Shown one piece after another: positions 15,116 through 61,676 of a stretch of DNA of 61,676 nucleotides (its first letter is position 1; each line of letters starts with the position of its first letter). The position numbers and the translations under genes are program-made. The notes beneath the pieces were generated by a model that made no database searches, had not been told where the DNA came from, and worked only from the letters and a program-made list of their open reading frames with translations. This DNA comes from a virus: positions 1 through 61,676 of IMG/VR virus record IMGVR_UViG_3300044530_000653, one strand, 5' to 3'.

Positions 15116-15319
15116 ATGAATGTATCTAAACAAAGATCAGCATTAAAGGCCATTACCTGGCGTATAATTGGAACAGCAGATACATTTGCTATTGCTTGGC
15201 TTATAACCAAAGAACCAGTTACAGCAGGTGCAATCGCAAGTTTCGAGGTAGTTACAAAAACAATCCTTTATTACTTCCATGAGCGTGGTTGGAATAAGGT
15301 TAAATGGGGGAGAAAGTAA
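15116..15319 (+). CDS. DUF2061 membrane protein (copy 2)
   Basis: Sixty-seven residues: SALKAITWRIIGTADTFAIAW, second helix, ILYYFHERGWNK. Close to the family consensus and paralogous to the gene at 11590. ATG 15116 is spaced 8 nt from GGAG; its stop overlaps the halogenase start. Confidence 0.82.
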   Translation: MNVSKQRSALKAITWRIIGTADTFAIAWLITKEPVTAGAIASFEVVTKTILYYFHERGWNKVKWGRK

Positions 15320-19710: not shown

Positions 19711-19856
19711 TGATACGATTAAAAAGCACAAAGAACATTAACCTATTCATCTGTGAAGAAGAGTTTTGCGAAGAAGAAAGCACCCATATATGGGCAAACT
19801 CTGAAACAAGAATAGTTGATTTGTGTGATTATCATTACGCTAAGGTAACAGTATGA
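19710..19856 (+). CDS. Small Cys/His protein
   Basis: Forty-eight residues with CEEEFCEEESTHIW and CDYHY, a probable zinc site. Overlaps both neighbours by 1-4 nt, which strongly suggests translation. Confidence 0.6.
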   Translation: MIRLKSTKNINLFICEEEFCEEESTHIWANSETRIVDLCDYHYAKVTV

Positions 19857-21846: not shown

Positions 21847-21921
21847 ATTATTCATCTAAAGTTCTTTGTTTGTTTGCCATTTATAACAAAACTTTATAGC
21901 CTTGTCGTATATACTATAAGT

Positions 21922-28211: not shown

Positions 28212-28784
28212 CTATTGGTTATTATCCTGGGCATGGCCATTAAACTTGGTAGTCTCATCACCATAAATAAATGCTGTTATAGAATATCTATTACCAGAGG
28301 TAACAGTCTTAACTTCATGGTTAAACTTAGCATTATGAATAACTGCACTTCTAGGCTTTGGATAGATATCTAGTTCAATATCTGGGTAGGATAACTCACC
28401 ACCTGTAAACTTGTCATTTAGATATATCGCAACCCCAAAGACTATACTCTTTGATTCTACTGGAGTTTCTATGGGGGTTACAGTGTCTGGAAGTATTGGA
28501 GGCTTTCCAGCATCTACGTGAGGCCACATAAACTCACCTGTTGTTAGTCTTCTTAGGCGATTAACAGTAGAGAAAGAATCCACGTTTTCAAAAAAAGTAC
28601 CTAGCCTAGCAAGCAGTTTATCTCTTAGACTAAACTCTTCATTTGTCATTGGCTTAGTTATGTTTCCTGGGTGAGACTCTTCCCATCCATCATCTGTGCA
28701 TGAAGATAGAAATAGTTCTTGCTCTTCATCATTTAGGAAATCTTCTATTTCATATATGCCATCTGCGTGTTGGATTACATTCAT
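28212..28784 (-). CDS. Prolyl-4-hydroxylase-like 2OG-Fe(II) oxygenase
   Basis: A 190-residue protein. WPHVDAG gives H-x-D, IYLNDKFTGGELSYPD the core strand, AVIHNAKFNHEVKTVTSGNRYS the distal His and Arg. Overlaps the methyltransferase by 4 nt, so the two are coupled. Substrate unknown; phage P4H-like enzymes may modify virion proteins. Confidence 0.82.
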   Translation of the reverse strand: MNVIQHADGIYEIEDFLNDEEQELFLSSCTDDGWEESHPGNITKPMTNEEFSLRDKLLARLGTFFENVDSFSTVNRLRRLTTGEFMWPHVDAGKPPILPDTVTPIETPVESKSIVFGVAIYLNDKFTGGELSYPDIELDIYPKPRSAVIHNAKFNHEVKTVTSGNRYSITAFIYGDETTKFNGHAQDNNQ

Positions 28785-29374
28785 TTTACTTCTCCAATAA
28801 GTGGATGTCCGTTGAAGATATCATATCTATAGGCTTCTTGGTTTACTGATTCTGGATCGATCCACCAGTCTTCACTAAGGGTTTGCCCAATTAGTTTGTA
28901 TCCTAGGCTGCTTAAGATTTCTCTTTGAGCATCTCTCATGGAGGCTCTCTTGTAGTTTTGAGACAGGTCATGCTCAATGATTATGACCGAAAATCTATAC
29001 TGTAGCATAGGCAGGGCTAGGAGGGCTAATAGACAGTTTCCTTTGTCATGTCCATCAATATCAATCTGCAAGAAGTCAATAGTCTTTGGGAAGTTATTGT
29101 CTCTAAAATAAGACAGGTAGTCAAAGGTTAAAGCATCAGCGTTAGTGCACTTGTTAGTACGGTCAGAGGAGTTATATCTTTGAGCCAGACCTTCATCAAT
29201 TTCTAAGGCAAGCCCCTTCCATCCAAACTCAGATTCTAGTAAATAGGTGTTACTTTCGATATATGGGTCTGCTGAGCCTAACTCTACATAGAAACCATTC
29301 TTCTTCTCCTGGGTCATAGATATGGCAAACGACTCTTGGAATGAAGAACTCTTGCTATTTTTATAATTGATCAT
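28781..29374 (-). CDS. FkbM-like methyltransferase
   Basis: A 197-residue protein. GFYVELGSADPYIESNTYLLE is motif I, GWKGLALEID motif II, and FLQIDIDGHDKGN motif III of FkbM-type SAM O-methyltransferases, often acting on glycans. TATACT ends 7 nt before the ATG. Paired with the hydroxylase downstream. Confidence 0.8.
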   Translation of the reverse strand: MINYKNSKSSSFQESFAISMTQEKKNGFYVELGSADPYIESNTYLLESEFGWKGLALEIDEGLAQRYNSSDRTNKCTNADALTFDYLSYFRDNNFPKTIDFLQIDIDGHDKGNCLLALLALPMLQYRFSVIIIEHDLSQNYKRASMRDAQREILSSLGYKLIGQTLSEDWWIDPESVNQEAYRYDIFNGHPLIGEVK

Positions 29375-45968: not shown

Positions 45969-46161
45969 TTTGCTATATACTATATATAAAGATAGTTTTT
46001 AAAACTATAAAGATAGTTCTTTTTTCTTATATATTTAAAGTATACACTATCCCTAACCTGGCTAAAATAGACTTATGGTAACAAATCGGACATTGACTAT
46101 TATAACAATTTGATAACTTTAAATATCATGTCCGTTTTGTCTATTATGGTATAATTTATTG

Positions 46162-46217
46162 TTGGCTAATACCTTGGTTTGTCCTATACCCACCGACCAT
46201 GGTATTAGTCAATTTTT
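46162..46217 (+). ncRNA. Tiny hairpin RNA with terminator
   Basis: TATAAT (46150-46155) ends 6 nt before position 46162, where a 16-position stem begins: TTGGCTAATACCTTGG pairs with CCATGGTATTAGTCAA (46197-46212; one G-U, one mismatch), then T5. The whole predicted transcript is a terminator-like hairpin of about 56 nt. The next gene has its own promoter at 46222. Rest of the 45969-46233 gap is AT-rich. Confidence 0.55.
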
Positions 46218-46233
46218 ATGGTATAATCACAGT

Positions 46234-46629
46234 ATGCCTAACCACTCTTCTCTTGCTTTTGGTGCCGATCCAGTCACTATGCAATGGAGCGTTGTTAGAG
46301 GAGATACTGGAACTCTGAGAGTAGAGTTTTATGAAGATAATGAAGTAGATTATTACAATACTGATGGATGGATTTTTAGAGCAACTGCTTATGACCAGTC
46401 TGGCAACGTTTTAGATGCCCTGGACTGTGAGCCTGGAGAAGGTTTTGTTGATATTACAGCCTACCCTTCAGTTACAAAAAACTGGGGATTAAAATATTCA
46501 TCAGTCGTGGCTCAGTTGCCATTTGATTTACAAGTAATAATTCCACAAGAGATTGAAGACACTGTTTGGACTCCTGTTATTGGAACCATTCAAGTATTAG
46601 GCGATGTTACACCAGGGGGTACACTATAA
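46234..46629 (+). CDS. Virion protein, tail-fibre adaptor-like
   Basis: A 131-residue protein. QWSVVRGDTGTLRVEFYEDN and later VIIPQEIEDTVWTPVIGTIQVLGDVTP resemble BppU-like/immunoglobulin adaptor modules. Paralogous to the gene at 55851 (RWTVVRGDS ... ILEDVTQ). TATAAT (46222-46227) ends 6 nt before ATG 46234. Confidence 0.65.
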   Translation: MPNHSSLAFGADPVTMQWSVVRGDTGTLRVEFYEDNEVDYYNTDGWIFRATAYDQSGNVLDALDCEPGEGFVDITAYPSVTKNWGLKYSSVVAQLPFDLQVIIPQEIEDTVWTPVIGTIQVLGDVTPGGTL

Positions 46630-47024
46630 TGGCAGTTATTAAGATTGTTCCAATGCCAGGCGCAGTTGGAGACAAGGGAGACGAAGGAGCCGTAGGCCCT
46701 CAAGGTCCACAAGGAGCACAAGGTTTACAGGGACCCGCAGGTGCTGACGCACTATGGTCTTACAATGGTGAATACAACCCAGGTGCAGGATATGCAGTTG
46801 GAGATGTTGTAACATACGAAGGACAACTTTGGTATCGCAAGCATCCTAATGGTGGAAACGTTGGAGACACACCATCAGAAGGATTTATTTGGGATTTACT
46901 TGCAGCAAAAGGTGCAGATGCTGAACTACCAATTGGTGTTAACTCATCCTTTACTATTGGAAATCAAACTTTTAATATTGTAAATGGAATTATTACATCT
47001 ATTGATGTAAACATTCAAGCATAA
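46629..47024 (+). CDS. Collagen-like tail-fibre protein with carbohydrate-binding module
   Basis: A 131-residue protein. Collagen-like Gly-X-Y stretch (GPQGPQGAQGLQGPAG, about 23-38), then NPGAGYAVGDVVTYEGQLWYRK, a CBM5/12-like motif. Probably a trimeric fibre that touches surface glycans. One-nt overlap with the previous stop. Its Gly-Pro-Gln triplets could be substrates for the prolyl hydroxylases downstream. Confidence 0.75.
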   Translation: MAVIKIVPMPGAVGDKGDEGAVGPQGPQGAQGLQGPAGADALWSYNGEYNPGAGYAVGDVVTYEGQLWYRKHPNGGNVGDTPSEGFIWDLLAAKGADAELPIGVNSSFTIGNQTFNIVNGIITSIDVNIQA

Positions 47025-47044
47025 TAACGTGAGATAATAACTCC

Positions 47045-47776
47045 ATGGCTGTTTCTAAATCTATGGATTTTCCAGGTGCAAAAAAATCTTCTTATGCTGC
47101 ACAAGTAGAACAAAGTCAAGCATCTCCTACTGTGGATAATGCTCTTTCATTTCTTCCAGTCCCTGGCCCAGTAGGACCACAGGGACCCGCAGGTAGAGAC
47201 GGTAGAGATGGAAAAGAAGGACCTGAAGGACCAGAAGGAAAGCCAGGACAAAAGGGTGATAAAGGTCCAGCAGGAAAAGATGGAGCAAGTTCTTTATCTT
47301 CTTCAGGACAACAAGCAGGATGGGCATCATACACAAACACTATTGACAAACCAACAAAACTCGGAGTATCTCAAGGAAACGATGGATGGGTAACTCTACT
47401 ATTAGATACAAAAGACAAATCCCAAAATGAAACATACCTTCCAAAAGGATGCACTAGCCTTTGGAATAGTCATCAAAGAGCCCTAAACTTCCACGGTATA
47501 AACGAAGGATCCCAAGTATTCCTAACATATAACTTTGAACTAACTACCTATACGGCTAACACCGAGGTTTGGCTAAGGACATATTTTGCAAGTAAGGATC
47601 AGGAGTTTGTGCAGTTTGTAGGATCTCTTAAGTATCAAAATGTCTACAACCTTTCAGTTACTCAAAATATATTTATCGAAGACAAGGCTATGTGGGGCAA
47701 CGGAGCAGTGCCTCAAATTAGAACAGACTTTGATGCCTCCGTAATCTTCAATTCTGTCTACGTCAGCGTGGTATAA
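47045..47776 (+). CDS. Collagen-like tail-fibre protein
   Basis: A 243-residue protein: Gly-X-Y region (about 40-80, GPVGPQGPAGRDGRDG, GKPGQKGDKGPAGKDG) and a C-terminal beta domain of about 150 residues (receptor-binding?). GATAAT ends 6 nt before the ATG. Confidence 0.75.
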   Translation: MAVSKSMDFPGAKKSSYAAQVEQSQASPTVDNALSFLPVPGPVGPQGPAGRDGRDGKEGPEGPEGKPGQKGDKGPAGKDGASSLSSSGQQAGWASYTNTIDKPTKLGVSQGNDGWVTLLLDTKDKSQNETYLPKGCTSLWNSHQRALNFHGINEGSQVFLTYNFELTTYTANTEVWLRTYFASKDQEFVQFVGSLKYQNVYNLSVTQNIFIEDKAMWGNGAVPQIRTDFDASVIFNSVYVSVV

Positions 47777-47783
47777 TAAAACC

Positions 47784-48920
47784 ATGGCATTTCCAGCAAC
47801 CTATGACTTTAACTACTATAAGGGTGATACCTTTGAGTTTAAGATCTACCCGAAAAAGAACGATGGAACGGTTTTTGATTTACGCCATTACGATGCCCCA
47901 ACAAGTTTTGCTAATGATCCAGATTATGTAAATGCTTTGGCTTCAACATATGATAGTGCTCAATTTACAATTGCTACTGCTAGAGGACCAATATCCACTG
48001 CTCCAGGAGTTCAACAGCCAATAAGATGCTTTGCAAGAATATCAGAAGATGGCACAAATGTTTCTTGTGCAATAAGACCAACAGATGCAGAAACTCTTAT
48101 TGCTGGAACAGAGTATGTGTATGACGTTGAAGTTAAAAAGCCAGCAGGTTTGCCAGGCAGTGGTCAATACGAAGTTGTTCAAACACTACTTACTGGCAAA
48201 ATAACAGTTACAGATCAAGTAACTGGTGCTAATGATGGAACTAGAGGATCTTTATCAGATTACAATATTCTAGGACTAACAGTTCCAGTTACATGTGCAG
48301 AACCAGACACGTCAGTTATTGGAACAGCAGAATATTTTGGAACAGTTAGATGGTTTGAGCCAAACGGTACAACTCTATTACCAACTACAGATTACACATT
48401 TGGACCAGACAAAGCATACAAGGCAGAAATAACTATAACACCTAGAGCGCCATATAGGATTCTTGGAACACCTGCTAATAAGTTTTCAGTAGAGGGTGCA
48501 GATATTGCAGAAAATCCTGAATATACAACAGAGCCAATTAGCGGGGCAGTAGTAATTGCAACATTTCCGAAGACAGCAAAACCAGTTTCACTCTTAGCAA
48601 TAAATGGTGTAACTCCTCCAGTTACTGGTATTGCTCCAAATACATCTGTTCCAGAAACAGCACAGTATTCAGTTACTTTATCGTGGAAAGAAAAATCTTT
48701 AACTGATCCAGTTACTTATGAAAACTTTACTGGAACATTTAAACCATCTAGAACATATGTAGCACAAATATTATTAACACCTAAAACTGGATATACTCTT
48801 TGTACAGGAATTTCAGCATCACCTGAACCAGGTTCTTTCTCTGTTACAGGTGCTTTAAATTACACAAATAGCGAAAACTCAGGAATCATTATTGCAGAAT
48901 TTCCTGTAACAGGAGCATAA
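47784..48920 (+). CDS. Tail protein with two Ig-like repeats
   Basis: A 378-residue protein. N-terminal BppU-like part (NYYKGDTFEFKIYPKKNDG), then two related modules of about 100 residues (LTVPVTCAEPDTSVIGTAEY and INGVTPPVTGIAPNTSVPET) with VxITPRAPYR/LTPKTGYTL and FPKT/FPVT ends, as in MBG-like surface repeats. Leaderless: TATAAT ends 6 nt before the ATG. Confidence 0.7.
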   Translation: MAFPATYDFNYYKGDTFEFKIYPKKNDGTVFDLRHYDAPTSFANDPDYVNALASTYDSAQFTIATARGPISTAPGVQQPIRCFARISEDGTNVSCAIRPTDAETLIAGTEYVYDVEVKKPAGLPGSGQYEVVQTLLTGKITVTDQVTGANDGTRGSLSDYNILGLTVPVTCAEPDTSVIGTAEYFGTVRWFEPNGTTLLPTTDYTFGPDKAYKAEITITPRAPYRILGTPANKFSVEGADIAENPEYTTEPISGAVVIATFPKTAKPVSLLAINGVTPPVTGIAPNTSVPETAQYSVTLSWKEKSLTDPVTYENFTGTFKPSRTYVAQILLTPKTGYTLCTGISASPEPGSFSVTGALNYTNSENSGIIIAEFPVTGA

Positions 48921-49516
48921 TGGCAGACATCCTTTTATCAAATGACGACCTAACAGTCTTTGGTGGACCAGAAACAGTTAGTCTTGATTTAGATATAGGA
49001 CCACAGGGTGATCGTGGAAGCATTATCCTAGCATCAAATGGCAACCCACAAGATGCTAACGTAAATGCTGCAATTGTTCAAAGCCTTCAGGCATTAGATA
49101 TTGCAATTGACATTCAGCCAGCATCTGAAACATACAAAACAGTTTTTCAAAGAGTAGCAACAGCGACTGGAACACAATGGACGACAATGTTCAACCTAAA
49201 AACAAACTACTACTCTTCAATTAAAGAGGAAGTTGCTGTTGATGGAACACTAGAAATAACACCAATAAACGTTTACGATATTTATGGAGATTCTGGAGAA
49301 ACCGCAGCAACATCAAATGCCTTTAATGTCCAGTACTCAATATCCTCACCAGATTCTTCTGGTCCTTTAGCAACAACTCTTATAGTAAAGCCACTAATAA
49401 CCAGTCAAGGCTTTTTGGCACTACCACTTGAAATAAAGGGTGTAGAATATATTGATGACGCTTGGCAGCCTATGGCTGGTCCAAAGCGTGTTCATTTATT
49501 TATTACGGTGGTATAA
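48920..49516 (+). CDS. Tail-fibre-associated protein
   Basis: A 198-residue protein (LLSNDDLTVFGGPETVSLDL, DIGPQGDRGSIILAS). Short Gly-Pro motif near residue 27, then a beta-rich C-terminus. One-nt overlap with the previous stop. No specific family recognised. Confidence 0.6.
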   Translation: MADILLSNDDLTVFGGPETVSLDLDIGPQGDRGSIILASNGNPQDANVNAAIVQSLQALDIAIDIQPASETYKTVFQRVATATGTQWTTMFNLKTNYYSSIKEEVAVDGTLEITPINVYDIYGDSGETAATSNAFNVQYSISSPDSSGPLATTLIVKPLITSQGFLALPLEIKGVEYIDDAWQPMAGPKRVHLFITVV

Positions 49517-49535
49517 TGACAAGAGGTGATTTATA

Positions 49536-51752
49536 GTGGCAGCAGAAAATATTGACAAAACCCCTACGGGTACTGGGCCGTTCAACACCAAAATGCCAGG
49601 ACTCGGAGATCCAGCCGATATTCAAGCAGCATTAAGACTTTACCACTATGGATCAGACACTTATGATGCAGCAGCAACAGAACCAGGCCCTCTTCCAATC
49701 CCCTCAATTGCAAACCACCTTAAAACTCTTACAGATGCAATCGCTGCTGAAACAGCAGCACGTGTTGCTCATCAAAACAAGACAACAGATGTCCACGGTA
49801 TAGCAAATACTGCAAATCTAGCATCACAGGCATATGTTATTAACGCTCTCGAAGGTGCTACAGCAGAGTATCCAAACCTTGCAGGAGATGGTCTTGAATG
49901 GAACGGTATTGATGAAAGATTTGATCTTGATCCATCTCTACTAAATAATAATACTGTAGTAATTAAGACAACTGGATTTACTTTAAGTGCCCTGGATGTT
50001 AATAAGACAATTTTACTACAAGCATCATCTCCAATGAATTTAACTATCCCGCTAAATTCTTCTGTTAGCATCCCAGTTGGATATAAGTACAATCTGGTTG
50101 AGGCTGGTTCAGCAAAAACAACTTTTGTTCCAGCATCTGGAGTAACAGTGGGTAGCAAAAACTCACAACTATTTTTAGATGGACAATATAGCAGAGGAAC
50201 TCTTGTAAAAATTGCAACAGATTCTTGGATTTTGTATGGTGATGTTTATGAAGGCGTTGCAGTACCTACTCCTACACCAGTTGCACCAACCCCTGTAGCA
50301 CCAACCCCAGTTGCACCTACACCTGTAGCACCAACACCTGTTGCTCCTACTCCTGTAGCACCAACCCCAGTAGCACCAGCACCACCTGTAACACCAGTCC
50401 CTCCATTCTTCCCATTCTTCCCTCCATTCTTCCCACCATTCTTCCCACCATACTTTGCTCCTATCCCTATCCCTGTTCCAACTCCAATACCATCAACAAC
50501 TTATTATGCAAAATTCTGTTCAAATGGTAGTGTAATTGGAAACAATACTGGAGCATCTTGTGCAGAGATAGAGGCTCTCGCACTTCAGGCTTATCCAAAT
50601 TTAACTAATTTTGTATGTCAAGCAAATTCTGCTCCATCAGATCCAACATGCACAGTTACACCTGTAACACCTATACCAGTTACTCCAACACCAGTTCCTG
50701 TACCAACACCTGTACCTACAAATCAATGGTATTGCTCTACAAGAGAAAACGATGGAACTACTGCTAATTACACAAGCGACACCAATAATACTAGTTGCAA
50801 TAACGTGGCTGCAACAGTATGTGTTTATGGACCAGAAGGAACATCTTACCCAGCATTACCAGCATTTCCATGTGATGGAACACCTACTCCTGTAGCACCA
50901 ACCCCTGTTGCTCCTACTCCTGTAGCACCAACTCCTGTAAACCCTTGTAACCCAGACTGGAGTTTAATTCCTCAGTCACAATGTGCTGAATGTGGATTAG
51001 TATGGAGCCAAGAGTTTGGTGAATGTATTAGCGTATCACCTACCCCAGTTGCACCTACACCTGTAGCACCTACACCTGTTGCTCCAACACCAGTTGCTCC
51101 TACACCAGTAGCACCTGTTAATGTTTGTGCAGATCCTTCAATCCTTACACAAGGACAGTGCCAGGGCTGCGGATACTACTGGTCACCAACATTTGGAGAG
51201 TGTTCTTCAACTCCATGGAATACACCTACCCCAGTTGCTCCAACACCAGTTGCCCCTACACCTGTAGCACCAACACCAGTTGCTCCAACACCAGTTGCTC
51301 CAACACCAGTTGCTCCTACACCTGTAGCACCTACACCAGTAGCACCTGTTAACATTTGTGCAGATCCATCAATTCTTAATCAGTCACAATGCCAGAGTTG
51401 TGGATATTACTACAGCACAGAGTTTGGAGAGTGTTCATCAACTCCATGGAATACACCTACACCTGTAGCACCACCATTCTTCCCACCGTTCTTCCCACCG
51501 TTCTTCCCATTCTTCCCACCGTTCTTCCCACCATTCTTTGCACCTACACCAGTTGCACCTACACCAGTTGCACCTACACCAGTAGCACCAACCCCAGTAG
51601 CACCTACTCCTGTAGCGCCAACACCTGTCGCACCAACCCCAGTAGCACCTACTCCTGTAGCACCAACACCAACAGGAGGATGTACTGGATGTATCAGAAA
51701 TTATTGCTATGAGCCTTGCCCATCATGTTGTAATGGCGATTGCGGATGCTAG
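49536..51752 (+). CDS. Pro-rich tail fibre with PTPVAP and PFFP repeats
   Basis: A 738-residue protein. N-terminal fibre part (about 1-240; DVHGIANTANLASQ and LNSSVSIPVGYKYNLVEAG shared with the gene at 59153). Then PTPVAP tandem repeats in six blocks, PPFFP blocks near 290 and 650, Gly/Cys inserts in three related copies (CADPSILTQGQCQGCGYYWS type) and a Cys-rich end (CTGCIRNYC ... CCNGDCGC). GTG start behind AGAGGTGA. The Pro-rich arms resemble arabinogalactan-protein glycomodules and sit just before three oxygenase genes and a glycosyltransferase. Confidence 0.8.
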   Translation: MAAENIDKTPTGTGPFNTKMPGLGDPADIQAALRLYHYGSDTYDAAATEPGPLPIPSIANHLKTLTDAIAAETAARVAHQNKTTDVHGIANTANLASQAYVINALEGATAEYPNLAGDGLEWNGIDERFDLDPSLLNNNTVVIKTTGFTLSALDVNKTILLQASSPMNLTIPLNSSVSIPVGYKYNLVEAGSAKTTFVPASGVTVGSKNSQLFLDGQYSRGTLVKIATDSWILYGDVYEGVAVPTPTPVAPTPVAPTPVAPTPVAPTPVAPTPVAPTPVAPAPPVTPVPPFFPFFPPFFPPFFPPYFAPIPIPVPTPIPSTTYYAKFCSNGSVIGNNTGASCAEIEALALQAYPNLTNFVCQANSAPSDPTCTVTPVTPIPVTPTPVPVPTPVPTNQWYCSTRENDGTTANYTSDTNNTSCNNVAATVCVYGPEGTSYPALPAFPCDGTPTPVAPTPVAPTPVAPTPVNPCNPDWSLIPQSQCAECGLVWSQEFGECISVSPTPVAPTPVAPTPVAPTPVAPTPVAPVNVCADPSILTQGQCQGCGYYWSPTFGECSSTPWNTPTPVAPTPVAPTPVAPTPVAPTPVAPTPVAPTPVAPTPVAPVNICADPSILNQSQCQSCGYYYSTEFGECSSTPWNTPTPVAPPFFPPFFPPFFPFFPPFFPPFFAPTPVAPTPVAPTPVAPTPVAPTPVAPTPVAPTPVAPTPVAPTPTGGCTGCIRNYCYEPCPSCCNGDCGC
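50264..51670 (+). repeat. Coding tandem repeats (PTPVAP and PFFP)
   Basis: Fifteen- to eighteen-nt units CCWACMCCWGTWGCA and CCACCATTCTTC recur in blocks at about 50265-50390, 50880-50935, 51040-51115, 51225-51345 and 51545-51665. Codons vary between units, so selection keeps the peptide, not the DNA. Confidence 0.85.
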
Positions 51753-51797
51753 TCTATAGTGTATAATAGAATAAAACAACTATAGAAGGAGATATAA

Positions 51798-52037
51798 ATG
51801 TCAGAAGAACTAACTCCTTGGCAAAAATATAAACAAAATTTGGGAGAAACTAGGCCTTGGGACATTGTAAACCCCTCAACAGAGTGGGCTACTGCCGAGG
51901 TAGCAGAAGAAAGATACTCTATCTGTAAAGCATGTCCAGAACTAATTAAATTAACAAAACAATGCAAAAAGTGCGGATGTTTTATGATAGCCAAAACAAA
52001 ACTACAAGTGGCAGTATGTCCATTAGGGAAGTGGTAA
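51798..52037 (+). CDS. DUF6171-like zinc protein
   Basis: Seventy-nine residues: YSICKACPELIKLTKQCKKCGCFM and a CPLGKW end are typical of DUF6171. RBS AGAAGGAGA. It lies between the fibre and the modification genes. Confidence 0.75.
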   Translation: MSEELTPWQKYKQNLGETRPWDIVNPSTEWATAEVAEERYSICKACPELIKLTKQCKKCGCFMIAKTKLQVAVCPLGKW

Positions 52038-52038
52038 C

Positions 52039-52710
52039 ATGGAAAAGGTATTTTGGGAAAACGATAAAGGAATAATTTTTAATAAATATAGGGCTATAGA
52101 AAGAACCGAAATTGCACCAGGAATCATGGCTTATGAAAATGTAATTCCTGAAGATATTTTTAAAACTTTTGTTTTTGACCTTGAAGAAGGTATGTTGTCA
52201 GCAAAAATAGAATGGCAAGCAGCACGGGTAAAAACTGGAATCGGGGATGCTGTAGAGACAAATGTGAATACAGAGTCAAGAGACACACAAACCATCAGTA
52301 TTCCATATTCAGAAACAGAAAAAGATGATTACTCAAGTGTAAGTTCAACATTCTATACCTCTATGGCTAATCTTTTTTTAGAAAACTTGGTTTCTATAGA
52401 AAACAATTATCAAAATAATTATGGAATATCCTGCTCCTGGCATGACTCTTATCAAATTTTAAAATATGGGGTAGGTCAAAAATTTACAAATCACATAGAT
52501 GATCATCCAGATTACCATAGAAGAGTGTCAACTTTGTATTATCTTAACGATAACTATTCTGGAGGAGAATTAAATTTTCCAAGATTTAATCTTTCTTTTA
52601 AGCCTAAAGCAAATCAGATGATAGTTTTCCCATCAACTTATGTATACAACCATTCTGTGTCTCCAGTAACTGAGGGAGAAAGGTATGCAGTCGTTAGTTG
52701 GTTAAGATGA
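52039..52710 (+). CDS. Prolyl-4-hydroxylase-like dioxygenase A
   Basis: A 223-residue protein. His152-x-Asp154 in NHIDDHPDYHRR, YYLNDNYSGGELNFPRF, distal His205 in VYNHSVSP and TEGERYAVVSW with the 2OG-binding Arg. This is a full P4H set. It would hydroxylate peptidyl proline or a similar residue in the cytoplasm. First of four coupled modification genes directly behind the Pro-rich fibre. Confidence 0.85.
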   Translation: MEKVFWENDKGIIFNKYRAIERTEIAPGIMAYENVIPEDIFKTFVFDLEEGMLSAKIEWQAARVKTGIGDAVETNVNTESRDTQTISIPYSETEKDDYSSVSSTFYTSMANLFLENLVSIENNYQNNYGISCSWHDSYQILKYGVGQKFTNHIDDHPDYHRRVSTLYYLNDNYSGGELNFPRFNLSFKPKANQMIVFPSTYVYNHSVSPVTEGERYAVVSWLR

Positions 52711-53279
52711 TAGAGCCAATACTAGTAGATAGTTTGTTAAGCGATGAGGATTACTCAAGACTTTTACAATCTTTAGATAATCCTAAGAGTTTTGGCTTTG
52801 ACCCTGGATTTAGCAGGTACTGTATTGGAGATGGTGGACTACCAATTTTAGGAGAGTTGGCAGACAAACTAACAGAAACTGCCAGAGAAATATTTAATAG
52901 TGAAACACTTCTTCCAACATATACCCTATTTGCACATTATGAGGGTCAAGATCCCGAACCAAGTCTTTATAAGCACAAAGATGATAATGCATGTACCTAC
53001 ACTCTAGATATGTGTGTTTATCAGAATGAGCCGTGGGACCTTTTTGTTGAGGACAAGGCATATACTCTTTATAAAAATCAGGCACTTGCGTACTACGGTA
53101 ATGATCAAATGCACTGGCGTGAAAAATTTCCTAACCCAGAAACTAATCATGTTGCTATGATTTTCTTTCACTTTGCTGAGCCAGACCATTGGTGGTTTAC
53201 CAAGGGAGTAGAATATCTTCAGGTGGTAAGAGGGCAAATAACAGAAGAGCAATGGGAACTTCAAAATGAAAACAAATAA
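52707..53279 (+). CDS. Dioxygenase-like protein B
   Basis: A 190-residue protein. LYKHKDDNACTYTLDMCVYQ supplies His-x-Asp, and GNDQMHWREKFPNPETNHVAMIFFHFAE the second His and strand. Similar to P4H-like oxygenases but more divergent; the 2OG-binding Arg is not clear. ATGA overlap with dioxygenase A. Confidence 0.7.
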   Translation: MIEPILVDSLLSDEDYSRLLQSLDNPKSFGFDPGFSRYCIGDGGLPILGELADKLTETAREIFNSETLLPTYTLFAHYEGQDPEPSLYKHKDDNACTYTLDMCVYQNEPWDLFVEDKAYTLYKNQALAYYGNDQMHWREKFPNPETNHVAMIFFHFAEPDHWWFTKGVEYLQVVRGQITEEQWELQNENK

Positions 53280-53790
53280 GGGAAATGTAGTTGTTGTAAA
53301 TAACTTCTTTAATCAAGACTACTCCTGGAACAATTTTATTAATTCTATTAATGATGCGTATGATCTAAGCAATCCAAAGAACGGAATAGTTTTTGGTAAA
53401 GAGGTTATCGGAAATATAAACTTTTTTCAGAAACTAACATTGACTCTAGAAAACATTAATGAGAAAAATTTTCCAGGGGTTGAAGATAAAGCAAACAAAC
53501 TAACACAGTTACACCAAGAGTTATCAAAGCCTAGCAAATGCATTGGATATTTTGGGGCAGTAAGTTTTACAACTAAAGAGCCCACAACAAGTAAGCACAA
53601 TGACCCCATAGATGTCATTTATGCTCAGTTTGTTGGCTCTGCCACATGGACAATATTTGATGAAGACGAGTCTGAGGTGCATACACTTAATCCAGGAGAT
53701 GTTATTTATGTTCCAAAAACTGTTATGCATGAAGTAACATCTTTAACTCCAAGAGCAGCCATATCTTTTATGTTTGGAGATTTAGAGTGA
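53266..53790 (+). CDS. Cupin/JmjC-like protein C
   Basis: A 174-residue protein. TSKHNDPIDVIYAQFVGSATW gives His and Asp, and LNPGDVIYVPKTVMHEVTSL the cupin motif and distal His. Such double-stranded beta-helix proteins are protein or ribosomal oxygenases. Overlaps dioxygenase B by 14 nt. Confidence 0.75.
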   Translation: MKTNKGNVVVVNNFFNQDYSWNNFINSINDAYDLSNPKNGIVFGKEVIGNINFFQKLTLTLENINEKNFPGVEDKANKLTQLHQELSKPSKCIGYFGAVSFTTKEPTTSKHNDPIDVIYAQFVGSATWTIFDEDESEVHTLNPGDVIYVPKTVMHEVTSLTPRAAISFMFGDLE

Positions 53791-54566
53791 AAAATGGAAT
53801 AGTGGTTTCTATGGTTCTTGATGAAAAGATAAGCATTGAGCACAACCATATGTATAAGCAGTTGTCTCATTCACTAAATACTTTGAGAAAAATAAACAAA
53901 GACATAAGTGTAAAAATTTACTATTCTCATAAGCCTGGATTGCCAGATAGCCATTCTGTTTATTTTCCAGAAGATCCAAACACAGAGTTTATACATTTTG
54001 ATAATATTATAAGTTTAGATTGGCACTCAGGATTTTGGAGTGCAGGAGTGGTTGAGCATAGGTGGGTTAATGCTTTTAGAGGCCTAGAAGATTTTGATTT
54101 TGATAATATTATTAATATGGACACAGATACTGAGTTTTTTAGAGATCCAGAAGAACTTTTTGAAAAATATGGAAATACAGAGTTTCTTTGGAGCAGAGAA
54201 GATACCTGTGATGACCTAACTAAAACATTAAAGATATACCCTGCTATAAATGATGGAATAACAGTTATTAGTAAAAATATTTTAAAGCACAAAAACATGT
54301 GTCTATCATCAATGAAACAATATATTAACTACACTTTAGAAAAATATAAAACACTTCTTTCTGAAAAAGACTACTATCAATTACCCTGGGTAATAATTCA
54401 ATATTCGGTATTTGACTATTTTAGTTCAAGGAATCTTCATAGATACTTCGACAAAGATGATGTTTTAATGCATGTTGAAGACAAAAAAGACACACATGTT
54501 GTTCGTCATTATTTTTCTTCAAACTCCTCAAAGTTCCTTCCAGTATGGCTGGGAGGCACACAGTAA
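53787..54566 (+). CDS. GT8-like glycosyltransferase
   Basis: A 259-residue protein. VSMVLDEK start, WVNAFRGLEDFDFDNIINMDTDTEFFRDPEELF with the DxD metal motif, and later PWVIIQYSVFDYF. Typical of nucleotide-sugar glycosyltransferases. GTG start overlaps the cupin stop. It is the natural candidate to glycosylate hydroxyproline made by the preceding enzymes. Confidence 0.75.
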   Translation: MKNGIVVSMVLDEKISIEHNHMYKQLSHSLNTLRKINKDISVKIYYSHKPGLPDSHSVYFPEDPNTEFIHFDNIISLDWHSGFWSAGVVEHRWVNAFRGLEDFDFDNIINMDTDTEFFRDPEELFEKYGNTEFLWSREDTCDDLTKTLKIYPAINDGITVISKNILKHKNMCLSSMKQYINYTLEKYKTLLSEKDYYQLPWVIIQYSVFDYFSSRNLHRYFDKDDVLMHVEDKKDTHVVRHYFSSNSSKFLPVWLGGTQ

Positions 54567-54579
54567 GTTTTAACATAAA

Positions 54580-54618
54580 AATACCCCCAAGGATTTCTCC
54601 AAGGGGGTATTCTTTTTT
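54580..54618. terminator. Bidirectional terminator
   Basis: ATACCCCC (54581-54588) and GGGGGTAT (54603-54610) form an 8-bp stem; T-runs follow in both directions. It separates the glycosyltransferase from the convergent lysozyme gene. Confidence 0.85.
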
Positions 54619-54623
54619 ATGTA

Positions 54624-55187
54624 TTACTTAGGAAATTTAGCCATCCAGTATTTGGTTCTTGGAGTGATGCCCTTCCATGAGGACCAATCATCTCCACCGT
54701 TTGTCATATAGTATGCAATCTCTGCATTCTTGACGGGATTGAATAACTCAGCATTTGAGTCAAGATCAAACTTGGTTCTACGATCAGGACCAAGAGCATC
54801 AATCATATTAATTTGGAACATACCATAAGACGAGTCGCCAGTCTTGTGATTGCCATTAAAGGCCAATGGTCGTCCATTAGATTCTTTCTTTGCTACTGCC
54901 CAAGCCACAACAAGGTCTTTGCCCTTGAAGCCTACTAGCGAAAGCAGTTCTTTTAGTTCTAAATCAGTCAGAGAAACCTTATTCTCAAAACTCTCTAACT
55001 TTTTTGCCTTAGAAACCAAAAAAACCTCTTTCGAGGTGGTTTCCGATGTCTGAGCCTGTTCAAGGCTAAGATTGTTCTTAGTATCAAGACCTGAATCAGC
55101 ATTGGCTCCGTTCGACAAAACAGTTACTAATGCTACGATACTGAGTGTGCTAATGATCTCTTTGTTTCTTTCGATAAATTTAATCAT
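54624..55187 (-). CDS. Exported lysozyme-like lytic transglycosylase
   Basis: A 187-residue protein. N-terminal signal/anchor (NKEIISTLSIVALVTVLSNGA), spacer helix, then a lysozyme-like domain: WAVAKKESNGRPLAFNG (catalytic Glu in KES), SYGMFQINMID and the C-terminal WSSWKGIT. It cuts glycan strands outside the membrane. It is the only - strand gene in the tail region. ATG 55187 follows AAGGAGGAAA. An operator-like element sits at 55209-55236. Confidence 0.8.
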   Translation of the reverse strand: MIKFIERNKEIISTLSIVALVTVLSNGANADSGLDTKNNLSLEQAQTSETTSKEVFLVSKAKKLESFENKVSLTDLELKELLSLVGFKGKDLVVAWAVAKKESNGRPLAFNGNHKTGDSSYGMFQINMIDALGPDRRTKFDLDSNAELFNPVKNAEIAYYMTNGGDDWSSWKGITPRTKYWMAKFPK

Positions 55188-55208
55188 AGTTTCCTCCTTA
55201 GAAAACAA

Positions 55209-55236
55209 TAACACCTTGGTAGGTGTTACTACCAAG
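55209..55236 (-). promoter_or_regulatory. Nested palindromes over the lysozyme promoter
   Basis: On the - strand, CTTGGTAG-N6-CTACCAAG (55215-55236) and TAACACCT-N4-AGGTGTTA (55209-55228) overlap so that only one can form. TATACT (55235-55240) and TTGCTT (55258-55263, 17-nt spacer) place the first palindrome over -10/+1 and the second at the start of the RNA. Confidence 0.7.
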
Positions 55237-55289
55237 TATATCATGAGATTTTTCAAAAAGCAACTTCAGAGGGTGGTATAATAAAGATT

Positions 55290-55838
55290 ATGCCACAATA
55301 TGCATCTAACTATCCTACTTCGCTTTCATACCCTATTGCCTCAGATCCCGTCAATGTACACGGAGATTTCAAGGTATTGGTAGATGCGCTAAATAATATT
55401 CTTCCCCCATTAGGATACGGAGCAGCATATATTGATGTTAGAAATACCACAAACGCAGCAATTTCTCAGGGTACTCCAGTTTTTATTAGCGGAAGTGTTT
55501 CTGGAAAATCATTAGTTGAAAAATATAATCCATCAAGTGTTTCCCATAATCCAGATGTTCCAATTCTTGGTTTGGTGAAAAATGATATTGCAACAAATAC
55601 CAACGGTCTTGTTATTGTCTCTGGAGTTATTCAAATGAACACAACAGACTTAGGGCCTGCTGGAACAAAAATTTATGTAGACAATAATGGAACTCTTGTT
55701 GCAGGTCGTCCATCTACTGGACCAGCAAGATATATAGCAGTCGTTGCAATTCAAGCAACCCTTGCACTTGGAGGAATGTTAATTGTTCAAACAAAAGGCA
55801 ACGGTACTTGGGGAGCACTCAAAGACGGATTGTCGTGA
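55290..55838 (+). CDS. Virion/tail protein
   Basis: A 182-residue protein (YASNYPTSLSYPIASDPVNV, INNxxP-like loop, ISQGTPVFISGSVSGKS). A beta-rich fibre or decoration protein. TATAAT (55277-55282) ends 7 nt before the ATG. Confidence 0.6.
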   Translation: MPQYASNYPTSLSYPIASDPVNVHGDFKVLVDALNNILPPLGYGAAYIDVRNTTNAAISQGTPVFISGSVSGKSLVEKYNPSSVSHNPDVPILGLVKNDIATNTNGLVIVSGVIQMNTTDLGPAGTKIYVDNNGTLVAGRPSTGPARYIAVVAIQATLALGGMLIVQTKGNGTWGALKDGLS

Positions 55839-55850
55839 TATAATAACATT

Positions 55851-56240
55851 ATGGCTACCTTCAGAAATCAACCCACAGACTCTTATGCGCTAGGTTCAGC
55901 ACCACCAGAAATTCGTTGGACTGTTGTTCGTGGAGATTCTGCAGCATTTCGTGTTTATGTAACCAATGATGCTAGAGAGCCACTTCTTCTTGATGATTGG
56001 GAAGTTGCTATGGATATTTATCGTCCTTCAACTGATGAGGTTGTTGTTTCTTTATCCCCTGAGCCAATTGAGTTTCAGGACACAGAAGGAAGTTTTACTG
56101 TAAACCTTACATCCTCTCAATCAGAACTTCTTGAGACAGGAGATATCTTCGACATCCAACTCACAGAACTTCTATCAGAAGGCAGAGTTTGGACGGTAGC
56201 CAAAGGGTCAATGGTTATCCTTGAAGATGTAACGCAGTAA
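55851..56240 (+). CDS. BppU-like tail adaptor
   Basis: A 129-residue protein (EIRWTVVRGDSAAFRVYVTN, MVILEDVTQ). Paralogous to the gene at 46234. Such modules join fibres to the baseplate. TATAAT (55839-55844) ends 6 nt before the ATG. Confidence 0.65.
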   Translation: MATFRNQPTDSYALGSAPPEIRWTVVRGDSAAFRVYVTNDAREPLLLDDWEVAMDIYRPSTDEVVVSLSPEPIEFQDTEGSFTVNLTSSQSELLETGDIFDIQLTELLSEGRVWTVAKGSMVILEDVTQ

Positions 56241-56485
56241 TGCCAACAAACCTAACCCCACTATCACAAGAGTTTTACAGAACAACCCATAGGCTTGCTC
56301 ATACACAGATTCAAGATCTTGATGTCAAAAGAATAAAGATCGATCACTTCCAGCCAAAGGCTAGGGTTCAAGAGGTTTTGCCGTTTAGAGTTCAGTTTAT
56401 AAATGTAAGTGTGTTTGGATACTCTAAAACAAATCCACCTCCAATTCCTCTTCAAGTTATTGGTTATAGTAACTATATTCTTTAA
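56240..56485 (+). CDS. Conserved small tail protein
   Basis: Eighty-one residues (PLSQEFYRTTHRLAHTQIQD, KIDHFQPKARVQEVLPFRVQ, PPIPLQVIGYSNYI). A type seen with minor tail genes. One-nt overlap with the previous gene. Confidence 0.65.
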   Translation: MPTNLTPLSQEFYRTTHRLAHTQIQDLDVKRIKIDHFQPKARVQEVLPFRVQFINVSVFGYSKTNPPPIPLQVIGYSNYIL

Positions 56486-56518
56486 TAGTACTATTAAAAG
56501 GGATGATATAATCACTAC

Positions 56519-56965
56519 ATGGCCAAAGTATCAATTCCATCAGTTAAGGCTCTATTCCAAACAGGAGATAGACCTACTCAAGAAAACTATGAAGATTTAA
56601 TCGATACCGCAACTGCTCAGTCAACAGACTTGGGCTCTGCAGGTAATAATGAAAATACAATCACTGGTATTGAAAACGTAACTGTTGTTGATAACTTTGA
56701 TGCTACAGTTTGGCGTATGGTCAAGTATATTGTTTCAATATCAAAGACCACTGCAGGGGACAACAAGTTCTATGCAACCGAACTTACAATTCTCGTTGAC
56801 GGTACAAATGTAAATGTCAGCGAATACGGAACAATCGACAATGATGGGAATATTGGCACCATTAATGTCTCTCGCACTGGAAATACCGTGGCCTTAACAG
56901 TCACTCCAGACCAAGCGATCAAGCCAGTCACAGTTCGTTTCGCACGAATTGGACTTAAGGCATAA
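56519..56965 (+). CDS. Tail-fibre beta-domain protein
   Basis: A 148-residue protein. The C-terminal part (VWRMVKYIVSISKTTAGDNK, then EYGTIDNDG and VTVRFARIG) is shared with the C-terminus of the next gene (EYLVKVAYGTHTEIS, EYGIVGTNG). TATAAT (56507-56512) ends 6 nt before the ATG. Confidence 0.65.
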   Translation: MAKVSIPSVKALFQTGDRPTQENYEDLIDTATAQSTDLGSAGNNENTITGIENVTVVDNFDATVWRMVKYIVSISKTTAGDNKFYATELTILVDGTNVNVSEYGTIDNDGNIGTINVSRTGNTVALTVTPDQAIKPVTVRFARIGLKA

Positions 56966-56983
56966 TAAAAGGAGATATAAAAA

Positions 56984-58609
56984 ATGGCAACAGTAAATAA
57001 AGATTTTAAGATTAAGAGTGGACTCGTCGTTGAAGGCCTACAAGGTACAATCAACGGTGAGGTAATTCTTACAGAAAATGCAGGAGATCAATACATTCTT
57101 GATTTGATTGGTGGAGAAACACTAGTCAAGTCAGTATCAAACCAGTTTGATGTTTCAGCAGGTGGAGAACTTTCACTTGATCGTACAGTAGTAGATGCTT
57201 ATTATGATGAAGCAGGTTCAGCAGATGCAGCAGAAGCAGCAGCAAACTCTTACACAGATGGAAGAGAAGCAGCAATTACAACTGCTTACGAAGCATACGC
57301 TGATCAAGCAGAAGTAGATGCTAAAGCATATACAGATACTCGTGAGACAGCAATTACAACTGCTTACGAAGCATACGCTGACACAGCAGAGCAAGATGCT
57401 AAAGACTACGCAGATGACTTGATCAATGATGCATCAAACCTTTCAACAGAGGTTTGGTCAGCATACAAGACAGCAACAGAAATTAGCGTTGCTCAGACAG
57501 CAGCAGAGGCTTACACAGACACTCGTGAAACTGCAATCACAACTGCTTACGAGGCATACGCTGACCAAGCAGAGGTAGATGCTAAGGCTTACACAGACAC
57601 TGAAATTGCAGCACTTGTAGATTCAGCACCAGCACTTCTTGATACACTCAATGAGTTGGCAGCAGCAATTGGAGATAATCCAAACTATGCAACAGACCTT
57701 GCTACATCAGTAGGAACAAAGGTTTCAAAGGCTGGCGACACAATGACAGGTGCTTTGACACTTTCAGGTGCACCAACAAGCAACCTACATGCAGCAACAA
57801 AGGCATATGTTGATTCAGCAGAATCAAATGCAATTTCAACAGCATCATCAGATGCTACCTCAAAGGCTAATGCAGCACAGGCTGCAGCAGAGGCTACAGC
57901 ATCATCGGATGCTACCTCAAAGGCTAACGCTGCACAAGCAGCAGCAGAAGCAACTGCCTCAGCAGATGCAACTTCAAAGGCAAATGCAGCAGAAGCAGCA
58001 GCAATCGCACACGCAGATGCACTTACAACAGACGATGTAGCAGAAGGAACAACACAGTACTTCACAGATGCTCGTGCTAAGTCTTCAGCAGCAAGTCTTT
58101 TGACTGGTGCTTCACTTACAAACATTACAATCACAGGAACAGGTGCAGGACTTACTATTACCGCAGAAAACGGTGTAGCAGATTCTACAACAACTGATCT
58201 TGCAGAAGGTACAAACCTTTACTTTACAGATGCTCGTGCTCGTACTGCAGTAGATGGAACAAATCGTTCATTTACTTCAGTTGAGTTAAACTCAGTTGCT
58301 AAGCAGGTCGCAGCAACACTTTCAGCACCAACAGCAGGAATTCAAGTAGCACACGCCTTCGCAAAGGCTGACTACCGTTCAGCAGAATACCTTGTAAAGG
58401 TTGCCTACGGAACACATACTGAAATATCAAAGGTCCTTTTGACACTTGACTCTTCAGATAACATTGCAATCACTGAATACGGAATTGTTGGAACAAATGG
58501 CTCAGCGTCATCAATTTCAGCAGGTATTTCAGGAGCAAACGTACAACTACAGGTAACAACCGCTAACAATGACTCAACAGTTACTGTTATGGGTACACTT
58601 CTAGTTTAA
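56984..58609 (+). CDS. Long tail fibre with helical repeats
   Basis: A 541-residue protein. Start ATVNKDFKIKSGLVVEG, then three AYTDTRETAITTAYEAYADQ repeats, an AS(S/A)DATSKANAAQAAAEA triple, TTDLAEGTNLYFTDARAR repeats (also TTDDVAEGTTQYFTDARAK) and a C-terminal beta domain. Typical trimeric fibre with coiled-coil shaft. RBS AAGGAGA. Confidence 0.75.
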   Translation: MATVNKDFKIKSGLVVEGLQGTINGEVILTENAGDQYILDLIGGETLVKSVSNQFDVSAGGELSLDRTVVDAYYDEAGSADAAEAAANSYTDGREAAITTAYEAYADQAEVDAKAYTDTRETAITTAYEAYADTAEQDAKDYADDLINDASNLSTEVWSAYKTATEISVAQTAAEAYTDTRETAITTAYEAYADQAEVDAKAYTDTEIAALVDSAPALLDTLNELAAAIGDNPNYATDLATSVGTKVSKAGDTMTGALTLSGAPTSNLHAATKAYVDSAESNAISTASSDATSKANAAQAAAEATASSDATSKANAAQAAAEATASADATSKANAAEAAAIAHADALTTDDVAEGTTQYFTDARAKSSAASLLTGASLTNITITGTGAGLTITAENGVADSTTTDLAEGTNLYFTDARARTAVDGTNRSFTSVELNSVAKQVAATLSAPTAGIQVAHAFAKADYRSAEYLVKVAYGTHTEISKVLLTLDSSDNIAITEYGIVGTNGSASSISAGISGANVQLQVTTANNDSTVTVMGTLLV

Positions 58610-60783: not shown

Positions 60784-61676
60784 ATGGCAGCAGGTAAGAA
60801 ATCAGGTAGAAAGTCCCAAGCGTCAAATGACTTCTTGGAGCCATTAGCACCAACAGGTGTTACAGGAACAAACGTTGGAACAGGAAGAGCCTTCAATAAT
60901 GGAGCAGTTTCTGTAGCGTTTTCTTTACCAGCACTTTCTCCTGCTGCTACATCTTTTACAGTAACAGCAAGTACTGGACAAACAAAAACTGGAGCATCTT
61001 CTCCACTTATTGTTGAAGGTATTGCGTCAGCAGCATCTGTAACATTTACAGTAACAGCAACTAATGCTGCAGGAACTTCCGCAGCATCTGCTGCTTCTGC
61101 TGCAGTAACAGTAACAACAGTACCAGCAACTCCTTCAGCACCAACTGCAACAGCAGGAGTAGATGCTGACTCAGTTTCTTGGACAGCACCAGCAAACGGA
61201 GGAAGTGCAATTACCTCTTATGTTTGGGCAGCATCAGATGGCAAGACTAACTCAACAGCAGGAACTTCAGTCTCTGTTGGACAAGAAGCAAATACAGCAC
61301 AGACTTACACTGTTAGAGCAGTAAATGCTAATGGAACATCAGCAACATCACCAGCATCTAACAACGTAACTACTATTGCTCCATTCTTCCCGTTCTTCCC
61401 CCCATTTTTCCCCCCATTCTTCCCACCGTTCTTCCCACCGTTCTTCCCGTTCTTCCCATTCTTCCCACCGTTCTTCCCACCATTCTTCCCACCGTTCTTC
61501 CCACCATTCTTCCCATTCTTCCCACCGTTCTTCCCACCATTCTTCCCATTCTTCCCACCGTTCTTCCCACCATTCTTCCCGTTCTTCCCACCATTCTTCC
61601 CATTCTTCCCGTTCTTCCCATTCTTCCCACCGTTCTTCCCCTTCTTCCCGTTCTTCCCACCATTCTTCCCAAAATA
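60784..61676 (+). CDS. Fibronectin-III fibre with PFFP tract (partial)
   Basis: At least 297 residues; runs off the window. N-terminal basic AAGKKSGRKSQASN, two fibronectin-III-like domains (VTFTVTATNAAGTSAAS, SWTAPANGGSAITSYVWAAS), then about 95 residues of only Pro and Phe in PFFP/PPFF units from 61381. RBS TAGGAGA. Same Pro/Phe units as in the fibre at 49536. The last codons read PK, so the tract may be ending. Confidence 0.75.
   Translation, partial: MAAGKKSGRKSQASNDFLEPLAPTGVTGTNVGTGRAFNNGAVSVAFSLPALSPAATSFTVTASTGQTKTGASSPLIVEGIASAASVTFTVTATNAAGTSAASAASAAVTVTTVPATPSAPTATAGVDADSVSWTAPANGGSAITSYVWAASDGKTNSTAGTSVSVGQEANTAQTYTVRAVNANGTSATSPASNNVTTIAPFFPFFPPFFPPFFPPFFPPFFPFFPFFPPFFPPFFPPFFPPFFPFFPPFFPPFFPFFPPFFPPFFPFFPPFFPFFPFFPFFPPFFPFFPFFPPFFPK
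61381..61676 (+). repeat. PFFP coding repeat tract
   Basis: About 295 bp made almost only of TTCTTCCC with CCA/CCG/CCC spacers (6- and 9-nt units). The + strand is C/T only apart from a few A and G, giving a strong polypyrimidine bias. Confidence 0.85.

Follow-up and report, generated by a model that had tools for sequence, protein, structure and literature searches.

Results

A fibre gene followed by oxygenase and glycosyltransferase genes

Positions 49536-54566 of IMG/VR virus record IMGVR_UViG_3300044530_000653, whose full length of 61,676 bases (39% GC) we analysed and call the window, hold a candidate fibre-modification module in which a proline-rich tail fibre gene is followed by a small DUF6171 gene, a prolyl 4-hydroxylase-like (P4H-like) 2-oxoglutarate (2OG)-Fe(II) oxygenase (P4H1), a second 2OG-fold oxygenase (P4H2), a JmjC/cupin-type oxygenase (CUP) and a GT8-like glycosyltransferase (GT) (Table 1). 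A first-pass annotation, made from the sequence alone, had described the locus as a fibre with many PTPVAP units followed by two P4H-type dioxygenases, a cupin dioxygenase-like protein and a DxD glycosyltransferase, all overlapping, and had proposed that the phage modifies its own tail fibre.

The fibre carries 32 TPVAP and 32 PTPVA units, against at most one TPVAP in 2000 residue shuffles, which bears out the repeat array first described. Because the 32 PTPVA units have 16 different 15-base spellings, the protein repeat has been kept though its DNA varies, and recent simple repeat slippage alone is an unlikely origin of the array. Prolines in the window fibre follow chiefly Thr (48) and Ala (36), and across 77 fibres Thr is the commonest residue before Pro, preceding 52.7% of the 7405 prolines past residue 200. 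The dipeptide code TP/AP/VP marks plant hydroxyproline-rich glycoproteins, and repeats of this plant type, shared with arabinogalactan proteins, occur in the fibre, as do FFPP blocks and Cys-rich modules. Residues 133-237 align (E 6.6e-13) to the C-terminus of the minor tail protein family phrog_8780. A check for collagen-like character found no Pfam family in the fibre and, in the identical fibre of loci L003-L007, no run of eight or more Gly-X-Y triplets. Elsewhere in the window, the protein of 60784-61674, which runs to the record end, contains an extended FFPPFFP array (Pro up to 47% in 60 residues), and 4462-6309 encodes a PT-repeat protein rich in Pro, Glu and Thr with a borderline PA14 domain; in three related fibres (L144, L170, L179), C-termini of about 150 residues resemble, by eye, intein/Hint-type domains.

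P4H1 matches PF13640 (71.5 bits against a gathering score of 27; E 1.2e-19) and phrog_61 (E 8.4e-36), and its closest PDB sequence is the bacterial P4H 3itq (E 1.3e-9). Within its iron triad and basic 2OG residue, H152 and H205 are invariant and D154 and R215 are present in at least 90% of 26 sequences; its NCBIfam matches, to PKHD-type/Fe2+-dioxygenase models, all lie below their cut-offs. None of 318 matching phage records reaches 60% identity to P4H1, the top-ranked being 32% identical over 87% of the query and one other 44% over 39%. P4H2, for which ATG 52707 (overlapping the preceding stop as ATGA) is a likelier start than TTG 52698, has no match by sequence in Pfam, NCBIfam or the PDB. 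As modelled (pLDDT 92.8), it is a 2OG-oxygenase double-stranded beta-helix with an HxD...H motif: the 50 listed Foldseek matches are all 2OG-type enzymes (best E 2.6e-7, all E <=1.5e-5), structural alignment (VIA) to 6n1f gives Z 16.2 and a root-mean-square deviation (rmsd) of 2.5 with 159 aligned residues, and H93, D95, H139 and R141 are invariant in 30 sequences. Since P4H2 has no family match and its profile shows no similarity to that of P4H1 by hhalign, we dropped its description as a second P4H; the claim of two P4H-type dioxygenases stands for P4H1, and for P4H2 it narrows to the 2OG fold.

The cupin and DxD assignments both held. CUP exceeds the cut-offs of PF08007 (32.6 bits, cut-off 22) and PF13621 (32.3 bits, cut-off 27.4), and its HxD...H triad (H111, D113, H155) is invariant in 14 sequences. 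The GT model (pLDDT 88.9) finds LgtC by Foldseek (E 5e-10) and aligns by VIA to LARGE1/LgtC with Z 16.7 and rmsd 3.4-3.7 over 222-227 residues; D112xD114 is invariant in 14 sequences. No Pfam, PHROG or NCBIfam family scores above its cut-off with GT, whose likeness to GT8 comes from the fold alone, and we describe it as a predicted GT-A-fold, GT8-like enzyme with a DxD motif. Its assignment to GT60 was dropped, as hhalign of GT against the N-acetylglucosamine (GlcNAc)-transferase of relatives shows no similarity; PF11397 has no match in the window, in a search whose controls were equally silent.

The four enzyme frames (52039-52710, 52698-53279, 53266-53790 and 53787-54566) overlap by a few bases, as first claimed, and the fibre, which shares no bases with the gene that follows it, is separated from them by the DUF6171 gene, which the first-pass annotation had missed. 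The PF19668 score of this gene falls just below the cut-off of 27 bits. Its product is possibly an adaptor, and in L134/L210 (one contig), L148, L158 and L159 it is fused to a GlcNAc-transferase.

Table 1. Features of the fibre locus and its flanks, in window coordinates.
Feature	Position	Strand	Basis
Collagen-like (Gly-X-Y) fibre	47045..47776	+	PF01391 30.8 bits, cut-off 27.2
f48920, left flanking gene used as border	48920..49516	+	Locus comparison
Pro-rich minor tail / fibre protein	49536..51752	+	Open reading frame; 738 aa, 19% Pro; phrog_8780 match
First PTPVA repeat block, residues 245-281	50268..50378	+	Repeat composition
FFPP block	50412..50455	+	Tandem repeat
PTPVA blocks, residues 502-527 and 563-604, Cys-rich module between	51039..51347	+	Tandem repeats
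Second FFPP block	51471..51538	+	Tandem repeat
Last PTPVA block, residues 669-710, then Cys-rich C-terminus	51540..51665	+	Tandem repeats
DUF6171 small CxxC protein	51798..52037	+	PF19668 26.9 bits; phrog_13558 E 1.6e-15
P4H1, prolyl-4-hydroxylase-like 2OG-Fe(II) oxygenase	52039..52710	+	PF13640; PDB neighbour; motif
P4H2, second 2OG-fold oxygenase	52707..53279	+	phrog_2954; fold model; invariant motif
CUP, JmjC/cupin-type oxygenase	53266..53790	+	PF08007, PF13621; invariant triad
GT, GT8-like GT-A glycosyltransferase	53787..54566	+	Fold model; DxD motif
LYS, flanking SLT/lysozyme-like gene, right border of variable cassette	54624..55256	-	PF18896 E 7.6e-16

Proline content and repeat motif covary with the enzyme cassette

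Comparison with related loci covered 80 of 161 relatives of P4H1, 80 of at least 590 relatives of LYS and 80 of 211 relatives of the collagen-like gene. A Pro-rich open reading frame (at least 25% Pro in 60 residues, at most 4 kb upstream of P4H1) precedes the hydroxylase in 74 of the 80 P4H1 loci, the remaining six contigs stopping less than 1.5 kb upstream, and this synteny supports both the fibre-P4H-glycosyltransferase order anticipated for other phages and the proposal that such phages may modify their own tail fibres. The genes after P4H1 vary. Those of sugar-transfer and sugar-nucleotide families include a PF11397 GlcNAc-transferase, a GT8-like glycosyltransferase, GT61 (E 1e-12; single or fused to a cupin), an O-fucosyltransferase (O-FucT)-like gene whose match lies under its cut-off, an NTP transferase and epimerases (for one, the best NCBIfam match is GDP-L-fucose synthase, far under cut-off); a methyltransferase, a radical SAM protein and another 2OG oxygenase also occur. 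PF11397, which we take to be the GT60/Gnt1 family, scores 79-132 bits (gathering 21; E 5e-22 to 5e-38) in the four relatives checked (L030, L011, L253, L210); the L030 enzyme has a single match among phage records, at 22% identity, and the GlcNAc-transferase profile matched no PDB sequence. LYS occurs in 69 of these P4H1 loci and borders the variable stretch in the loci displayed; the 11 loci without it include some short contigs and some with another right-hand neighbourhood. In three loci (L013, L015, L035; minus strand) a distant P4H1 relative (35-41% identity) lies upstream of collagen-like genes, with a DUF6171 relative nearby in L035, and the contigs of L159, L134, L158, L089, L180 and L185 each hold 4-10 PF13640 matches, several of them clustered.

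Loci picked by two flanking genes, LYS and the collagen-like gene, are unselected for P4H. Both borders were present in 112 of 160 such loci (40 of the 80 LYS-anchored and 8 of the 80 collagen-gene-anchored loci, where both were not found, being left out), which yielded 63 distinct fibres once those at least 90% identical were merged. With low-Pro fibres defined post hoc as those whose maximum Pro fraction in 60 residues is below 0.26, a local P4H1- or P4H2-type oxygenase accompanies 54 of 56 high-Pro fibres (42 with P4H1 and 12 with P4H2 alone, the latter counted as an oxygenase and not a proven P4H) and none of the seven low-Pro fibres (L144, L155, L156, L162, L170, L212, L253; Fisher p 6.5e-8). 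P4H1 in these counts denotes the best BLAST match, which is below 45% identity in five high-Pro fibres (L183, L190, L216, L236, L240). Moving the cut-off to 0.25 leaves low-Pro fibres at 0 with and 5 without an oxygenase and high-Pro fibres at 54 with and 4 without (p 1.8e-5), and P4H1 alone gives p 0.003 at 0.25 and 2e-4 at 0.26, all of these p-values overstating independence because the fibres are related. Within this lineage fibre modification thereby withstands the pattern that the first-pass annotation had held to speak against it, enzymes kept by related phages lacking any Pro-rich or collagen-like fibre: low-Pro loci have no local P4H1- or P4H2-type oxygenase.

The kind of repeat likewise tracks the kind of enzyme. 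In a Mantel test that takes no account of motif classes (68 representatives), repeat k-mers correlate with enzyme content (r 0.38, p 5e-4), less so with the intervening DUF6171 (r 0.16) and not with the LYS flank (r -0.05); a partial Mantel test of repeat against enzymes retains r 0.36 (p 5e-4, the floor of 2000 permutations). When fibres are sorted into motif classes, which are crude, were defined after the data had been seen and leave L216 outside the VTP class, VTPA/VTPV repeats go with CUP (12/13 against 4/50 of the others, p 8e-9), PTPVA repeats with the O-FucT-like gene (9/12 against 8/51, p 1.5e-4) and TTTT fibres with a GlcNAc-transferase-cluster gene (6/6 against 13/57, p 4e-4). Three of these Thr-rich TTTT fibres (L162, L253, L212) keep the GlcNAc-transferase with no local P4H, and three that also carry FFPP (L183, L236, L240) have a distant P4H1 relative (34-38% identity); none of the three SFTP-class fibres has a P4H, and two lack any recognised cassette enzyme. 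Among pairs with close flanks, mean cassette distance is 0.60 within a repeat class and 0.77 between classes. Such covariation is what an enzyme-substrate relation would predict, with ancestry and linkage only partly removed, and it suggests that the cassette is exchanged along with the fibre repeat motif, pointing to phages that may themselves produce fibres of a plant-like or mucin-like glycoprotein.

A probable actinobacteriophage lineage

The lineage carrying the module probably consists of uncultured actinobacterial phages, because the window contains a WhiB match (E 4e-13), its terminase is 55% identical to those of Streptomyces phages, and the N-terminal 245 residues of the fibre match 215 phage records of which 202 are Gordonia phages, the listed Gordonia matches including minor tail proteins. 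In PMC10202952, whiB is given as an indicator of actinophages, and both this marker and structural genes akin to those of actinophages are found here. A megablast search of 46159-58609 against phage records returned no match, and the P4H1 profile, run against species genomes (80 of 137 relatives covered), led to no recognised prophage or host; the top-scoring relative there is 32% identical over residues 72-223, higher values being reached by short stretches alone. Promoter and terminator scans (21 against 29.5, sd 7.1, and 11 against 7.5, sd 3.0, in shuffles) were not used as support. Away from the fibre, on the minus strand, a second PF13640 oxygenase (28212-28784, E 3.3e-8) overlaps an FkbM-type methyltransferase gene (28781-29374); the window further encodes a tryptophan halogenase (15304-16863, PF04820 E 2e-101), a substrate (phosphate)-binding-protein-like gene (21874-22965) and a luciferase-like monooxygenase (19853-20734).

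Discussion

The gene content, folds, catalytic motifs, synteny and covariation observed here lead us to consider it probable that this phage uses an operon-like module with an interchangeable enzyme cassette to hydroxylate the repeats of its own fibre and to attach sugar to them. The enzyme activities, their substrate, the sugar, its attachment residue and the benefit to the phage would then be as follows. Arms of (PTPVA)n and FFPP would project from the minor-tail domain, their repeat prolines would be hydroxylated by P4H1, and further residues would probably be oxidised by P4H2 and the JmjC/cupin enzyme; the GT8-like transferase would then place a sugar on hydroxyproline (Hyp) or on the side chains of adjacent Thr residues. 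The product would be a stiff arm coated with sugar, comparable to mucins or to the hydroxyproline-rich glycoproteins of plants. Because the enzyme set appears to be exchanged along with the repeat motif, these phages would be able to change glycan type, with host binding or shielding as a plausible use. We further propose, tentatively and at a little short of an even chance, that motif and cassette form exchangeable 'glycotypes' replaced together between flanks that stay conserved, in which one GlcNAc-transferase family serves Hyp where a hydroxylase is present and Thr where it is not.

Several observations weigh against self-modification of the fibre, in addition to the post hoc cut-off and motif classes, the relatedness of the fibres and the inclusion of P4H2 in the counts. 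Two Pro-rich fibres (L134, L159), whose loci hold the DUF6171-GlcNAc-transferase fusion, have no local P4H, their contigs carrying other P4H-like genes; L156 combines VTPA repeats with CUP and no P4H, and L212 carries TTTT and FFPP with no P4H. L179, which lacks its left border and was therefore not counted, has VTP repeats and CUP with no P4H and speaks against a strict rule, and some pairs of different repeat class share identical cassettes. As two low-Pro contigs, G007 (L253) and G010 (L155), bear 2OG genes elsewhere and the remaining ones are only 6-24 kb fragments, the association of proline with oxygenase covers the local gene only. Beyond this lineage, four of five distant cyanophage/marine records have no clear Pro-rich or collagen-like fibre, their oxygenases adjoining replication, hypothetical or unannotated genes (S-B64 has one 123-residue minus-strand frame with 0.25 Pro and no collagen run), and only P-SSM2 shows a clear collagen-like, Pro-rich neighbourhood; the fibre-oxygenase rule is therefore one of this lineage and not of phage 2OG oxygenases generally.

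A strong rival, which overlaps the preferred reading as a sub-case, holds that the sugar sits on Thr, as in mucins, and that Hyp only stiffens a polyproline arm. The prevalence of Thr before Pro favours it, as do the three of six TTTT fibres that have the GlcNAc-transferase and no local P4H and the statement in PMC8724618 that GT60 enzymes also initiate mucin-type chains; yet SFTP fibres have Thr-Pro and no P4H, mostly with no recognised cassette enzyme, and Gnt1 of GT60 is described as specific for hydroxylated proline (PMC6939170), and we give a Thr-linked sugar with purely structural Hyp somewhat less than an even chance. The same genes could instead act on the host (envelope glycans, host proteins, superinfection exclusion) or on phage DNA, roles that PMC10202952 and PMC12619734 record as proposed for phage glycosyltransferases, and two of the distant 2OG relatives do adjoin DNA-metabolism genes. 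A host or DNA target would leave unexplained why covariation of motif and cassette persists after flank control, why the local P4H is absent where Pro repeats are absent and why a Pro-rich frame so regularly precedes P4H1, and we regard it as unlikely.

Fibre and enzymes, adjacent and exchanged between conserved flanks, might also be co-inherited through linkage alone, with no enzyme-substrate relation. This is very unlikely in our view, given that DUF6171, lying between them, tracks the repeat less closely than the cassette does and that the three Thr-rich fibres keep the radical SAM protein and GlcNAc-transferase without P4H. That the hydroxylase targets the collagen-like fibres at 46566-47776, with the Pro-rich fibre adjoining by chance, seems highly improbable: these genes do belong to the same run of genes, further upstream, and the P-SSM2 P4H relative sits amid collagen-like frames, but P4H tracks the Pro-rich fibre, and six of the seven low-Pro loci have a collagen-like gene (longest run 11-14 Gly-X-Y) and no local P4H, the gene not being seen on the seventh contig, L170.

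Modification of its own fibre by the phage, as we favour it, offers phage prolyl-4-hydroxylase genes a substrate that can be put to the test. If it is true, hydroxyproline- or mucin-like glycoproteins are produced by bacterial viruses and diversified through cassette exchange, which would be a new route to altered receptor binding or shielding and a source of compact hydroxylase-glycosyltransferase pairs expressible in bacteria.

Virus-encoded hydroxylation of repeat proteins has a precedent in PBCV-1 vCPH (5c5t), which the P4H2 model matches among many 2OG enzymes, and mimivirus L230 is a viral collagen hydroxylase; these enzymes serve collagen-type substrates of eukaryotic viruses, whereas the repeats here are non-collagen TP repeats of a bacteriophage. 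PMC9301287 cites a report of Hyp in proteins of a chlorella virus and lists P4HA among the most abundant auxiliary genes of the Baltic Sea water column, calling its use cryptic. P4H1 shares a family match with such phage phrog_61/P4HA oxygenases, to which no substrate is assigned there. In line with the first-pass annotation, which knew of no described phage system of this kind, the portions of the open-access literature available to our search yielded no phage module combining a Pro-rich fibre, a P4H and a glycosyltransferase. Mycobacteriophage virion proteins are glycosylated (Freeman et al. 2023, cited in PMC12619734), a likeness in that glycans are borne by virion proteins of actinobacterial phages; those glycans are on the C-termini of capsid and tail-tube subunits, and the available text of PMC12619734 mentions no hydroxylase.

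Plant hydroxyproline-rich glycoproteins carry sugars on Hyp derived from Pro (PMC8724618). The phage fibre resembles plant extensins and arabinogalactan proteins in its TP/AP/VP dipeptide repeats and differs from them in showing no homology, in its tail-protein domain and in belonging to a bacterial virus. A second parallel is the protist Skp1 pathway, in which, according to PMC8724618, PMC6939170 and PMC3515798, GT60 GlcNAc-transferases glycosylate the Hyp of Skp1 after P4H has acted, other GT60 enzymes starting mucin-type O-glycosylation (PMC8724618). In that pathway the prolyl 4-hydroxylase PhyA is followed by Gnt1 of GT60 and by further sugars, and relatives of our phage likewise pair a P4H-type oxygenase with a GlcNAc-transferase, some adding fucose-type enzymes; Skp1, by contrast, has one regulatory Pro, where the phage has a repetitive fibre and, in the window, a GT8-like transferase. 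If the glycotype proposal is true, these phages would possess an equivalent of the protist Skp1 pathway as well as of the mucin-type one and, to our knowledge, the first known hydroxylation-dependent glycosylation of a bacteriophage fibre.

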